From Halalkalibacter oceani (GTDB taxonomy: Bacteria; Bacillota; Bacilli; Bacillales; Bacillaceae_D): a stretch of 64,000 bases of DNA. Positions 16,159 through 59,246 of this stretch are shown here, piece by piece. Within the stretch, counting starts at the first letter, position 1. Every line of letters begins with the position of its first letter. Location of the stretch: contig NZ_JAMBOL010000003.1 of assembly GCF_023715605.1 (NCBI RefSeq), positions 124,001 through 188,000 on the forward strand, given 5' to 3'. The notes beneath the pieces were generated by a model. It saw only the letters and a list, made by a program, of their open reading frames with translations. It was not told the origin of the DNA and ran no database searches. Both the position numbers and the translations under genes were made by a program.

Positions 16159-17163
16159 TCAATTAATCAAGCCGTTCTTTCCCGCCCCAAGCAGCGAACG
16201 CCATTCTTCCTCGGGCCAATGCTCGTCAAGCCAGCTGATCGAGGAACGAATATGTGAATTGAATGGGTCGAATTGCAATGCTTTTCGGAACGTCACCATC
16301 GCTTTTTTTCCTTCTCCCGCCAAGGCATAATTCCAGGCCAGTCCATGGAGCACCTTCTGCTCCAGCCCTTCGCTTTCCTGAATCCGCTTATAGCAGTGGA
16401 CAGCTGTTTGATGGTAGCCATGCCATTCGCACACATGGGCCAAAGCGAGCAGGGAAGTCGTTGATTCAGCGACGTGAATGCTCGTCAGCCAGGAAACCCA
16501 GGCCGCCTCCTTATCCCCTTTCAGCCATTGGCAGCAGCCAAGAAAGAAGTAAGCTTCTTCATCCTCACTCACCTGCTCGATATAATCGAGAAAATAGGAT
16601 TCAGCTAGGTGGAACGCTTCTTGAACGTAATAACACACGCCTAAATTATACACGACATCCGCCGTCGTGATAAGCTGATTTGCCCGCTCAAAACAGACGG
16701 TCGCTTCCTCAAAGCATTGGCGGCGGGCGTGAATACAGCCTAAACCGACATAGGCAAAATGATGAAAAACTTTTTTCCGGGCAGCCTGAACGAGATAAAG
16801 AAACAACTCCAGCGCTTTTTGTTCATTGTTGGCAAACAGGAAAGCAAAGCCGGTGTAGAGCAGGCGTAAATCATCCTCATCCCCGCTTGCCTGCTCTGAT
16901 TGCAAAGTATCGGCCGCTTTCGCAAACATCTCAAGCTGATAATACACCGTGCCGGTCGAGCGGTATTGCAGGAGGTCGCTTTGCTCTGTCCCTTCCGCAC
17001 GAAGCTTCTGGACGAGTTCATCCATTTGCGTCCATTCATCGAGCAAGGTCCCGGCCGTCTCCTCCAAGTATGTCAGCTGTTTCTTTTGCTCATTCGGGCT
17101 TAAGAATGCCCATTTCTTTTCTGTTTGTTGATAGAGAGAATGCCACGACGTGAACCAATCCAT
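16159..17163 (-). CDS. Tetratricopeptide repeat protein
   Basis: 334 residues, almost wholly alpha-helical with TPR-like repeats (for example FAYVGLGCIHARRQCFEEATVCFERA, YNLGVCYYVQEAFHLAESYFLDY, and a typical last repeat near residue 290, ALAGEGKKAMVTFRKALQFDP). There is no signal peptide, so it is a cytosolic scaffold by inference. ATG at 17163 with GAGGAGGGG upstream; a TTG one codon earlier is an alternative. It lies between panD and dinG, where B. subtilis has no such gene. A hairpin overlapping its ribosome site (17164-17220) suggests it is uncoupled from, or attenuated after, the pan operon. Confidence 0.75.
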   Translation of the reverse strand: MDWFTSWHSLYQQTEKKWAFLSPNEQKKQLTYLEETAGTLLDEWTQMDELVQKLRAEGTEQSDLLQYRSTGTVYYQLEMFAKAADTLQSEQASGDEDDLRLLYTGFAFLFANNEQKALELFLYLVQAARKKVFHHFAYVGLGCIHARRQCFEEATVCFERANQLITTADVVYNLGVCYYVQEAFHLAESYFLDYIEQVSEDEEAYFFLGCCQWLKGDKEAAWVSWLTSIHVAESTTSLLALAHVCEWHGYHQTAVHCYKRIQESEGLEQKVLHGLAWNYALAGEGKKAMVTFRKALQFDPFNSHIRSSISWLDEHWPEEEWRSLLGAGKNGLIN

Positions 17164-27306: not shown

Positions 27307-28098
27307 TTATTCCTTCATTCTCACTTTGCTTTTTTCCGCCCGGTACTTTTTCCAGCCGACATAGGAAAGCGAAAGCACGATCATCCCGCCAATGGTAAAC
27401 ATCACCCACCATAAGGACGGATCGGCGCTGTCTTCCTTCACCTGCTGATAGAGCTTCTGCCATTCTTCCTCCATCATCGTCAAATGCGCAGTCAATGTGC
27501 CGGACTCAAGCGACTCTGCCCTCCGTTTTTCGAGAAAGGTGATTTGCGATTCAATCCGTTGCAAAAGCGGCGGCTCTAAATGAATGAACAACGCCGGCCG
27601 GATCATTTGATAATGGCGGAGAAATTCATTGAGGCGATGCTGATAAGCCTGTTGATCCCGCGCCACCACCGTTTCCCGCATTTTCGCCAACGCCTGCATC
27701 ACCGATTGTTCCGTTTGCAGCCAGAGCGGGTGGTGCTCACTCGTTAGCGCATCAACTGCCAGGCGAAACGAGGTGATGGCATAAATCCGTTCTTCCACCG
27801 GCAAATCAGCCGCCGTCACCGCTTCCTCCGCTTTCTCGAACGTCAGCGTTACCGTCCGTAGCGCGCTCATCGTGATCCCTTCTGCCTGAAAATCAACCTC
27901 TAAAAAGTTGCGTGAAAAATAGTCCAGCAATTGCTTTGCTTCCTCATACTTTTCCGCTTTGACCAGCTGAAGGATCTGGTCCGAGGTATGGTTTAATTCT
28001 TTCCATCTATGTAGAGATGACTCTTCATCCGTCTCGGCATACACTGGACTCATCAGCAAACAAACGGCTAAAAAAATAAGCACTAGTTGACGCATCAT
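27307..28098 (-). CDS. ypjB: Sporulation protein YpjB
   Basis: 263 residues. Signal peptide (MRQLVLIFLAVCLLMSPVYA), a long helical extracytoplasmic domain, and a C-terminal membrane anchor (WWVMFTIGGMIVLSLSYVGW) followed by a basic tail. This matches SpoYpjB, needed for normal sporulation in B. subtilis. Two ATG codons (28098, 28095) follow AAGGGGGG. The order ypjB-ypjA-qcrC is conserved. Confidence 0.85.
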   Translation of the reverse strand: MMRQLVLIFLAVCLLMSPVYAETDEESSLHRWKELNHTSDQILQLVKAEKYEEAKQLLDYFSRNFLEVDFQAEGITMSALRTVTLTFEKAEEAVTAADLPVEERIYAITSFRLAVDALTSEHHPLWLQTEQSVMQALAKMRETVVARDQQAYQHRLNEFLRHYQMIRPALFIHLEPPLLQRIESQITFLEKRRAESLESGTLTAHLTMMEEEWQKLYQQVKEDSADPSLWWVMFTIGGMIVLSLSYVGWKKYRAEKSKVRMKE

Positions 28099-28172
28099 CC
28101 GTCCCCCCTTTTTCTACTCTCATCCTATGTACAGTGGGACAAGAGTAGACCAAGAAAAGGCGAAAATGCGAC

Positions 28173-28775
28173 CTAGCGCTCAATTTCGAGACGAAGAGCT
28201 TGTTTGCGAACCGTTAAACCGTAAACGGTCACAAGCGAGAAAATGCTGAGCCAGAACGTAAAGTAACCGATTTGCGTCACATACGGCATCAGTCCGTACG
28301 AAACGGTCGGGTGCATCATAAATACATAATCAATGATGTCATTATGTACGGTCCAGACAGCGACGACAGCGAGGTGCCAAGGTTTGATCCGATAATAAGG
28401 CGCATATAAAACAGCCTGCAACGCCATCCCGGCATGAGAGAAAATCAGCATGTAGTGGCGCCAATTTAACGGGTCGCCAACATAACCGGCAGCGACATTC
28501 ATCACGACAGCCCAAATGCCATATTTAATCAACGTAACAGCTGCAAGCGCTTCAATCAGCGGCCAATTGCGTCCGAGCAAAAAAGCGATCAGCACGAACA
28601 CAAAAAAGAGACTTGCTGTCGGACTGTCCGGCACGAACGGGAGAAAAATGTCCGGCGTCCGGGCCAGCTGGGAGCTGTACCACATATAGCCATAAATCGT
28701 TCCGGGAATATTGATCAAGAGCAGCATGATCAGCATCGGTTTCTTTCCAAATAAGCGCAAAAGAGCATGTAGCAT
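28173..28775 (-). CDS. ypjA: YpjA, DUF1405 membrane protein
   Basis: 200 residues with about six membrane helices (for example LIMLLLINIPGTIYGYMW, LFFVFVLIAFLLG, WLSIFSLVTVYGLTV). Conserved polar motifs include LNWRHYMLIFSHAGMA and VHNDIIDY. It belongs to the DUF1405 family, role unknown. It lies between the qcr operon terminator and ypjB, all on the minus strand. Confidence 0.85.
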   Translation of the reverse strand: MLHALLRLFGKKPMLIMLLLINIPGTIYGYMWYSSQLARTPDIFLPFVPDSPTASLFFVFVLIAFLLGRNWPLIEALAAVTLIKYGIWAVVMNVAAGYVGDPLNWRHYMLIFSHAGMALQAVLYAPYYRIKPWHLAVVAVWTVHNDIIDYVFMMHPTVSYGLMPYVTQIGYFTFWLSIFSLVTVYGLTVRKQALRLEIER

Positions 28776-57703: not shown

Positions 57704-57739
57704 AAAACCGGAGAAGCGGGGGCACACTTCTCCGGTTTT
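57704..57739 (-). terminator. Intrinsic terminator of spoVIF
   Basis: AAAACCGGAGAAG and CTTCTCCGGTTTT are perfect 13-bp arms with a 10-base loop; TTTTTGC follows on the minus strand. Confidence 0.85.
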
Positions 57740-57837: not shown

Positions 57838-58104
57838 TTATTTTTTATTGAACATCTTCGCAAGAGAAGCAAAGTCAGTTGGCATGTTGTTGTTAATAAT
57901 CGCATTCACAATCTGGTCTTCTTTTTCCTTTGAAACAGGTTTATTTGCAAGCTTTGCGACTTGGGCAATTAACTGCCTTACAGTTGCTTCGTCCTGAAGA
58001 TTGGCCTGGCTGACCGAGTTGGCAAGCTTGAGGAGTTCATCTGGCTTAACACTCGTCTTTTTTTGAATTTGATCCATAATAGATGGGTCATTTTTCTGAA
58101 ACAT
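57838..58104 (-). CDS. spoVIF: Stage VI sporulation protein F
   Basis: 88 residues, the usual family length. The pattern MFQKNDPSIMDQIQKKTSVK, DEATVRQLIAQVAKLANKPV and KEDQIVNAIINNN fits SpoVIF, a small mother-cell protein needed for late coat maturation. The ATG at 58104 follows GAGGGAGGGTGCC. A sigma-K-type promoter and an RBS-masking hairpin lie directly upstream. The B. subtilis homologue (yjcC) is elsewhere on the chromosome. Confidence 0.85.
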   Translation of the reverse strand: MFQKNDPSIMDQIQKKTSVKPDELLKLANSVSQANLQDEATVRQLIAQVAKLANKPVSKEKEDQIVNAIINNNMPTDFASLAKMFNKK

Positions 58105-58106
58105 GC

Positions 58107-58164
58107 GGCACCCTCCCTCATTCGTAATCACCATATCGTATGCAGGCTGAAGGGAGGTGGTGCC
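58107..58164 (-). promoter_or_regulatory. RBS-sequestering hairpin upstream of spoVIF
   Basis: On the minus strand GGCACC-AC-CTCCCT (58151-58164) is complementary to AGGGAGGGTGCC (58107-58118) with a 2-base bulge. The 3' arm is the spoVIF ribosome site, two bases from its ATG. The sigma-K-type promoter lies in the loop, so only transcripts that begin upstream can form the hairpin. Confidence 0.65.
58134..58161 (-). promoter_or_regulatory. Sigma-K-type promoter of spoVIF
   Basis: On the minus strand CATACGATA (58134-58142) matches the sigma-K -10 pattern CATANNNTA exactly; an AC at 58160-58161 with a 17-base spacer can serve as the -35 (another AC gives 14). The predicted start lies near 58127. 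Confidence 0.6.
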
Positions 58165-58196: not shown

Positions 58197-59246
58197 TTAG
58201 CTCTGACGATACGCCGCATCGACGATGTCAGTGTGCAGCTGTTCAACCTCATGCTTTTTCACCCGACCCATCAACCCTTCGGCCGCATCCTTTGGCTGTA
58301 CACCATCGAATAAGACCGCATGGAGCGAAGCGGTAATCGGCATATCGACACCGCATTCTACGGCGAGCTCATGAGTAGCCTTCGTCGTCTGAATTCCCTC
58401 GACGACCATTCCCATCGAATCGAGCACCTCATCGAGTGTTTTTCCTTCGCCAATCAGCTTACCGGCGCGAAAATTACGCGAATGAATGCTCGTGCATGTC
58501 ACGATTAAGTCGCCTAAACCGGACAGCCCGGCAAAGGTTAATGGATTGGCCCCAAGCTTCACGCCAAGACGGGCGATTTCCGCCAGCCCGCGTGTCATAA
58601 TCGCCGCTTTTGGATTATCTCCCATTCCGAGACCTTGCGTTAAGCCGCAAACAAGGGCGATAATGTTTTTCAGCGCCCCGCCAATTTCAACGCCAATTAA
58701 ATCAGGGTTCGTATAAACGCGAAAACGCTGATTCATAAACAAATCCTGGGCGAACTCGGCTGCCTGATGACATTTGGACGAAACGGTTACCGTCGTCGGC
58801 TGTCTCTGACTCACCTCTTCGGCATGACTCGGTCCCGACAGCACAACGACTGCTTCAAGCAGCTCGGTGCCTCCCATTTCCTCTTCAATCATCTCCGAAA
58901 TCCGCTTATGCGTGCCTGGTTCGATCCCCTTGCTCGCATGGATCATCACAACCTTTTTTTTCAGTACCTTTCGCAGCTCGGCAACCGTCTCCCGCATCGC
59001 CTTTGTCGGCACGACGAGCAGAATTGCATCTGTATCCTCCACAGCCTGTTCCATCGAGGCGCAGCCAACAATCGTCTCAGAAAGCGTCACACCTGGCAAG
59101 TAGGATTCGTTCGTGTGACGCTGATTGATTTCCTCAATTTGTTCTTTCCGCCTCGCCCACAGACGCACCGCGTGTCCGTTGTCAGCCAGGACCATCGCCA
59201 GTGCGGTGCCCCAGCTTCCTGCTCCCAGTACGGAAATCGTTCCCAT
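58197..59246 (-). CDS. gpsA: Glycerol-3-phosphate dehydrogenase [NAD(P)+]
   Basis: 349 residues. It reduces DHAP to sn-glycerol-3-phosphate for phospholipids. NAD site VLGAGSWGTALAMVLADNGH, IHASKGIEPGTHKRISEM, the catalytic Lys in EIGGALKNIIALVCGL, and FAGLSGLGDLIVTCTS. The ATG at 59246 follows GAGGAGGGG; the reading frame is open further upstream but without a start signal. It lies directly after plsY. Confidence 0.95.
   Translation of the reverse strand: MGTISVLGAGSWGTALAMVLADNGHAVRLWARRKEQIEEINQRHTNESYLPGVTLSETIVGCASMEQAVEDTDAILLVVPTKAMRETVAELRKVLKKKVVMIHASKGIEPGTHKRISEMIEEEMGGTELLEAVVVLSGPSHAEEVSQRQPTTVTVSSKCHQAAEFAQDLFMNQRFRVYTNPDLIGVEIGGALKNIIALVCGLTQGLGMGDNPKAAIMTRGLAEIARLGVKLGANPLTFAGLSGLGDLIVTCTSIHSRNFRAGKLIGEGKTLDEVLDSMGMVVEGIQTTKATHELAVECGVDMPITASLHAVLFDGVQPKDAAEGLMGRVKKHEVEQLHTDIVDAAYRQS

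Follow-up and report, generated by a model that had tools for sequence, protein, structure and literature searches.

Organization of the spoVIF Locus

The window (the whole 64,000-nucleotide stretch of Halalkalibacter oceani DNA analysed here) carries, in this order, gpsA and spoVIF (both on the minus strand), a DUF2768 gene, an ORF without a Pfam match and spoIVA. Read-through into spoVIF would come from gpsA, perhaps from the gene run der-plsY-gpsA (der and plsY were named by reading their translations). The product of spoVIF is, as judged from its sequence, a SpoVIF-domain protein that stands outside the NCBIfam equivalog NF052662, for which it scores 97.6 bits, below the cut-off of 130. 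Among named relatives, H. oceani is nearest to it, at 98% over the protein. The gpsA stop codon and the spoVIF ATG are 92 nt apart, and a search for terminator-like sites on the same strand of this gap returned none. All elements of the masked spoVIF leader belong to the minus strand, a strand that had not been given in the preliminary description of this DNA. The coordinates of these features are listed in Table 1.

Table 1. Features of the spoVIF leader and its surroundings, and the ypjB gene, in window coordinates
Feature	Position	Strand	Basis or detail
gpsA, upstream housekeeping gene	58197..59246	-	NF000941, 523.9 bits (cut-off 423)
5′ arm GGCACC-AC-CTCCCT	58151..58164	-	GGCACC 58164-58159, bulge AC 58158-58157, CTCCCT 58156-58151
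Likely sigma-K −35 GCACC, within the 5′ arm	58159..58163	-	Sequence motif
Sigma-K-type −10 CATACGATA, in the loop	58134..58142	-	Motif level
Putative start of the sigma-K transcript	58126..58130, near 58128	-	Distance to the −10; downstream of the 5′ arm
3′ arm AGGGAGGGTGCC, holding the spoVIF Shine-Dalgarno sequence (SD)	58107..58118	-	
spoVIF ATG	58104-58102	-	
spoVIF (SpoVIF-domain protein, 88 aa)	57838..58104	-	Pfam PF14069, 113.7 bits (cut-off 27)
Terminator-like hairpin 3′ of spoVIF	57704..57739	-	
ypjB	27307-28098	-	PF09577; upstream stretch about 28099-28175

Promoter and Hairpin Elements of the spoVIF Leader

The ribosome-binding site of spoVIF had been described as having a 12-bp complement further upstream that is interrupted by a bulge of two bases, and both arms are located exactly as described: the 5′ arm is complementary to the SD region over 12 bp, with the 2-nt bulge, and the two arms enclose a loop of 32 nt. 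The sigma-K −10 motif is CATANNNTA. The placement of such a −10 between the arms, also part of the preliminary description, is upheld at the level of the motif. The likely −35 element GCACC is spaced by 15 bp from the decamer GCATACGATA, a distance that agrees with the sigma-K spacing of 15 ± 1 bp stated in a figure legend of PMC517825. Because GCACC fits a sigma-K −35, the 5′ arm would correspond to the −35 region and the spacer of the promoter. The putative transcription start lies downstream of this arm, so that hairpin formation would be impossible in the sigma-K mRNA.

Pairing of the Ribosome-Binding Site within the Window

The folding energy of the whole 141-nt stretch is ordinary (z −0.81; 47 of 200 shuffles fold equally well) and a repeat finder reported no inverted repeat at the spoVIF leader, which we assume to be due to the 2-nt bulge. 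Pairing with the SD region that equals the native one is found in only 0.7% of 6,396 window 40-mers drawn from both strands. The predicted cost of opening the spoVIF SD in a read-through-like RNA is 14.8 kcal/mol, the joint highest value, together with that of gene 16159-17163, among the 64 script-predicted genes of the window (mean 3.4 and sd 2.7 kcal/mol for the 63 genes other than spoVIF). The corresponding predictions are 4.3 kcal/mol for the sigma-K mRNA and 8.9 kcal/mol for shuffled sequences, of which one in 50 reaches 14.8. Two window genes, 16159-17163 and ypjB, form a stronger duplex than spoVIF at the same offsets. Taken alone, these window-level pairing statistics are suggestive, and the case rests on the comparative data given below.

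The SD of the gene at 16159-17163 (minus strand), which codes for a TPR protein, occupies the 3′ arm of an extended stem that is located upstream of 17163 and followed by a T run. This stem is a terminator-like hairpin overlapping the ribosome-binding site.

Covariation of the Two Arms in Relatives

We collected 196 spoVIF loci, the same genome being sometimes repeated, and found gpsA directly upstream in 127 of them. Clustering at <80% identity removed the repeats and gave 67 gpsA-linked and 53 other spoVIF clusters. Eleven of the 196 loci, one of them gpsA-linked, had been excluded before counting (no CATA in range or too near the locus end). Start codons and SDs were picked by script, with the same CATA range required of the spoVIF copies away from gpsA. 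The controls were single-base shuffles, which for spoVIF covered the 36 nt preceding the −10.

Covariation of the arms had been set beforehand as a check on the preliminary description. Arm sequences that differ across genera were found to be still complementary to each other, and this complementarity is centred on the SD. The arm pairs CTTCGTTC/GAACGAAG (locus L003), AAAGTCCTC/GAGGACTTT (L018) and TTCCCACCCT/AGGGTGGGAA (L078) are examples in which the sequences change with the genus while pairing is kept. Native arms of the 67 gpsA-linked clusters pair with −20.1 kcal/mol versus −15.1 kcal/mol for swapped arms, none of 20,000 permutations made without a tree being as good, and native pairing is stronger than the cluster's own mean swap in 59 of the 67. 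The difference persists in the 17 most divergent linked representatives (−20.6 versus −14.9 kcal/mol) and in 13 genomes of the genus to which the window belongs (the host genus; −21.6 versus −19.1 kcal/mol), again with 0 of 20,000 permutations as good in each set. Outside the host genus, swaps made within each of five clades chosen by hand (with 3 to 12 loci per clade) gave a non-significant difference (p 0.17 to 1.0), and most of the covariation is therefore found between clades. Since the clusters and genomes are related to each other, and a tree did not enter the analysis, relatedness is only partly controlled in these swap statistics.

Sigma-K spacers are T/C-rich and SDs are purine-rich, a composition that could lead to pairing by chance. 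The spacer columns are indeed mostly T or C and swapped arms still reach −15 kcal/mol. That composition accounts for the native pairing is nonetheless very unlikely, as native arms exceed by about 5 kcal/mol swaps that are built from the very same arms, and the effect is far smaller where spoVIF lies away from gpsA, although a CATA −10 was required there too (a small native excess in the 53 clusters, −14.4 versus −13.0 kcal/mol; permutation p 0.0001).

The −10 is an exact CATANNNTA in 60 of the 67 gpsA-linked clusters, and 61 of the 67 have CAC or CAA within the −35 window. Conservation continues past the −10 (58127-58143 of the minus strand, and relatives), where the columns of the 67 clusters give the consensus GCATAYGATATNNTGAA; this extended consensus perhaps reflects a start-site preference.

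Predicted Accessibility of the Ribosome-Binding Site in Relatives

The ribosome-binding site had been proposed to be hidden in read-through RNA and free in the sigma-K mRNA. Predicted accessibilities agree with both parts of this proposal in the window (see above) and in the gpsA-linked clusters, whose mean predicted cost of SD opening is 9.2 kcal/mol in read-through RNA, 3.0 kcal/mol in sigma-K mRNA and 5.2 kcal/mol in shuffled controls. The read-through cost is higher than that of the sigma-K mRNA in 64 of the 67 clusters and higher than the shuffled mean in 61; the shuffled controls are not exceeded in six. When clusters are considered individually, 5% or fewer of 50 shuffles reach the native value in 39 of the 67. 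The 53 other clusters have mean costs of 6.1 (read-through), 2.0 (sigma-K) and 5.0 kcal/mol (shuffled), with 28 exceeding the shuffled control.

In the 58 linked clusters in which no terminator was detected, the mean probability that a base of the six-base SD is paired with RNA upstream of the putative start is 0.77-0.92, and this probability drops on either side of the SD (leaving aside an edge position present in two clusters). The partners of the SD are mostly located from −17 to −3 relative to the −10, i.e., in the promoter spacer.

Masking versus Transcription Termination

Terminators following gpsA were detected in 6 of the 67 linked clusters with a first rule (−7 kcal/mol or better) and in 9 with a second one. 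The mask over shuffled controls is 0.56 kcal/mol in the nine clusters with a terminator after gpsA versus 4.57 kcal/mol in the 58 others (p 0.0016). A terminator-like stem identified by eye at locus L005 had been missed by both rules; its inclusion changes the comparison to 10 versus 57 clusters, with p 4.5e-4. The mask is 0.22 kcal/mol where the gap between gpsA and spoVIF measures at least 110 nt (13 clusters) versus 4.95 kcal/mol where it is shorter (54 clusters; p 2.6e-5), and it is 1.14 kcal/mol in the 53 clusters in which spoVIF is not beside gpsA versus 4.57 kcal/mol (p 9e-9). A weak mask where a terminator is present fits a device directed against read-through. When the gpsA stop codon is less than about 60 nt from the spoVIF start, the terminating ribosome could briefly cover the 5′ arm.

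The relation is not absolute. A terminator and a strong mask occur together at L078, and a strong mask is found despite a terminator-like site upstream at L146, L158, L159, L160, L166 and L184, all of them loci with spoVIF away from gpsA. Among the 53 non-gpsA clusters, the mask does not differ significantly between insulated (42) and uninsulated (11) ones (p 0.23), a comparison in which the sorting of neighbours and terminators is noisy since the neighbouring genes were identified by ORF length only.

The position of the hairpin on the 3′ side of gpsA, and its weakness where terminator hairpins follow gpsA, would also be expected if it served the gpsA mRNA as a 3′-end stabiliser or processing site, its overlap with the SD being incidental. 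This is the least probable of the readings considered here: the peak of pairing coincides with the SD, and since the 3′ arm lacks a following U run, the hairpin is no intrinsic terminator.

The inverted repeat might also be a DNA operator around the promoter, bound by GerE, SpoIIID or another mother-cell regulator, with the RNA hairpin as a by-product. Its arms flank the −10, as an operator might, and the count of G-U versus A-C pairs, made to tell RNA hairpins and DNA palindromes apart, does not do so (126:64 in native and 1465:911 in swapped arms; odds 1.22, p 0.21). We consider such an operator quite improbable, however, because the spoVIF arms vary by genus and have by eye only the complementarity to the SD region in common, because pairing has its peak on the SD, and because it gives no reason for the weak masks behind a terminator. 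The turnover of arm sequences, their centring on the SD and the relation to terminators favour an RNA hairpin over a DNA operator, as an argument rather than a proof.

A Probable Translational Insulator in the spoVIF Leader

The spoVIF leader is thus very probably a translational insulator, a reading in which we infer that read-through RNA exists, where sigma-K transcription starts and that translation is blocked. RNA polymerase running on from gpsA would produce an RNA with both arms, in which the 5′ arm (the sigma-K −35 and spacer) would pair with the spoVIF SD and exclude ribosomes. The sigma-K RNA polymerase of the late mother cell would start within the loop and yield an mRNA without the 5′ arm, which would be translated. 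SpoVIF would in this way be confined to the late mother cell. This interpretation, put forward in the preliminary description, is supported by the covariation of the arms, by the conserved −10 in the loop and by the weak mask where a terminator insulates the gene.

A clear precedent is phage T4 gene e (lysozyme). Its long early transcripts, like those of soc, 49 and I-TevI, hide the SD in a helix, and late promoters located just upstream produce mRNAs without the 5′ strand that are translated, a reduction of ~100-fold having been reported (PMC3014915, excerpt). The spoVIF SD is likewise paired in the long RNA, and the mRNA from the late promoter likewise lacks the 5′ strand, in this case by prediction. 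The T4 arrangement, unlike that of spoVIF, concerns early/late timing in a phage and not cell fate; its sequences and sigma factors are others, and the ~100-fold figure belongs to T4.

The precedent in sporulation is B. subtilis sigG (spoIIIG). PMC5942855 (excerpt) cites Masuda 1988 and Sun 1991 for the proposal that a hairpin in its read-through RNA blocks translation; this hairpin cannot form in RNA from the gene's own promoter. Both sigG and spoVIF are sporulation genes that follow other genes, and at both the hairpin would be confined to read-through RNA. In the case of sigG the upstream genes are sporulation genes (spoIIGA-sigE), the gene's own promoter is of the sigma-F/G type and the hairpin has 20 or more bp, whereas spoVIF follows a housekeeping gene and has a sigma-K-type promoter whose own spacer forms the 5′ arm. 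An RBS hairpin in the sigG 5′ leader that dampens translation of this sporulation sigma gene is also described in the same excerpt; it sits in the gene's own mRNA, whereas the spoVIF hairpin would be absent from the putative own-promoter mRNA. The spoVIF mask appears to be a further case of the T4 gene e/sigG type that is well supported by the comparison of relatives and shows some sign of being general. Titles and beginnings of abstracts in the spoVIF literature, a scope that leaves most subscription papers aside, hold no report of translation control or of a hairpin.

Descriptions of sporulation control usually centre on the sigma factor that initiates transcription. If active housekeeping genes constantly give rise to mistimed spore protein through read-through, insulation would be needed, and the promoter spacer would supply it without extra length. 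Spore genes of other spore formers are then predicted to have a terminator or a mask, and RNA-seq reads across a spore gene do not necessarily indicate that its protein is made.

The Same Layout at Other Sporulation Genes

Further sporulation genes were compared with shuffles that covered 60 nt for ypjB, −150 to −40 for sigG, and −120 to the −10 for yabP, yqfC, cotE and bofA. For sigG, the published case, SD opening costs more in read-through than in short RNA in 25 of 25 genomes and more than in shuffled sequences in 23; the sigG of the host genome (L277) is one of the two failures (6.7 versus 7.4 for shuffled).

The yabP read-through value exceeds the shuffled one in 21 of 25 relatives, the host included (p 4e-5). 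In the host (L314:1376-1443, contig C38), CCCTCCTC of the promoter spacer complements GAGGAGGG of the SD, with CATATAATG in the loop; the host yabP lies 68 nt after a small co-directional S4-domain-like ORF that is itself behind a mazG-like ORF (both named from reading). Probable miscalled starts were kept in the counts, namely 5 of 25 for yabP (L293, L296, L298, L300, L312) and at least L342 for yqfC. The yqfC leaders exceed the shuffled controls weakly (17 of 25, p 0.024), and the host copy (L334) has no mask (4.8 versus 5.8 for shuffled).

At ypjB, CATAGGAT is found in the loop and the SD side pairs with the stretch around CTTGTCC. Read-through values are above those of both short RNA and shuffled sequences in all 38 clusters, and individually so in 27; the host gene (L208) taken alone is non-significant, 10% of shuffles being as high. 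As the ypjB arms hardly vary, swapping them has a weak effect (z −2.6, p 0.005). These arms, CTTGTCC/GGACAAG, look like what we take to be SpoIIID sites, a resemblance that speaks for a DNA operator. So does the presence of a ypjB fragment among the gel-shift DNAs of PMC517825 (excerpt).

The layout of spoVIF is thus seen at yabP and, less clearly, at ypjB, and may therefore be a common means of insulating mother-cell genes. We see about even chances that Bacillales generally make use of read-through masks whose loop contains a mother-cell promoter, by which mother-cell genes behind housekeeping genes would be insulated at the level of translation and others by a terminator. The spacer of the promoter would also provide the 5′ arm, so that the same DNA would be a promoter in one state of the cell and, as RNA, an anti-SD in another. 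The cases would be spoVIF behind gpsA, yabP behind the mazG-like and small S4-like ORFs, ypjB behind ypjA and cytochrome genes, and yqfC in some species.

A sigma-K pattern has 11 matches in the host genome versus 10 for the reversed pattern, and hence is no guide to further cases. No mask was found at cotE, where read-through exceeds shuffled in 6 of 25 and the mean is below that of shuffled sequences (p 0.042), nor at bofA, where 13 of 24 exceed shuffled (p 0.10). Several of the bofA upstream stretches hold, by eye, an apparent terminator.
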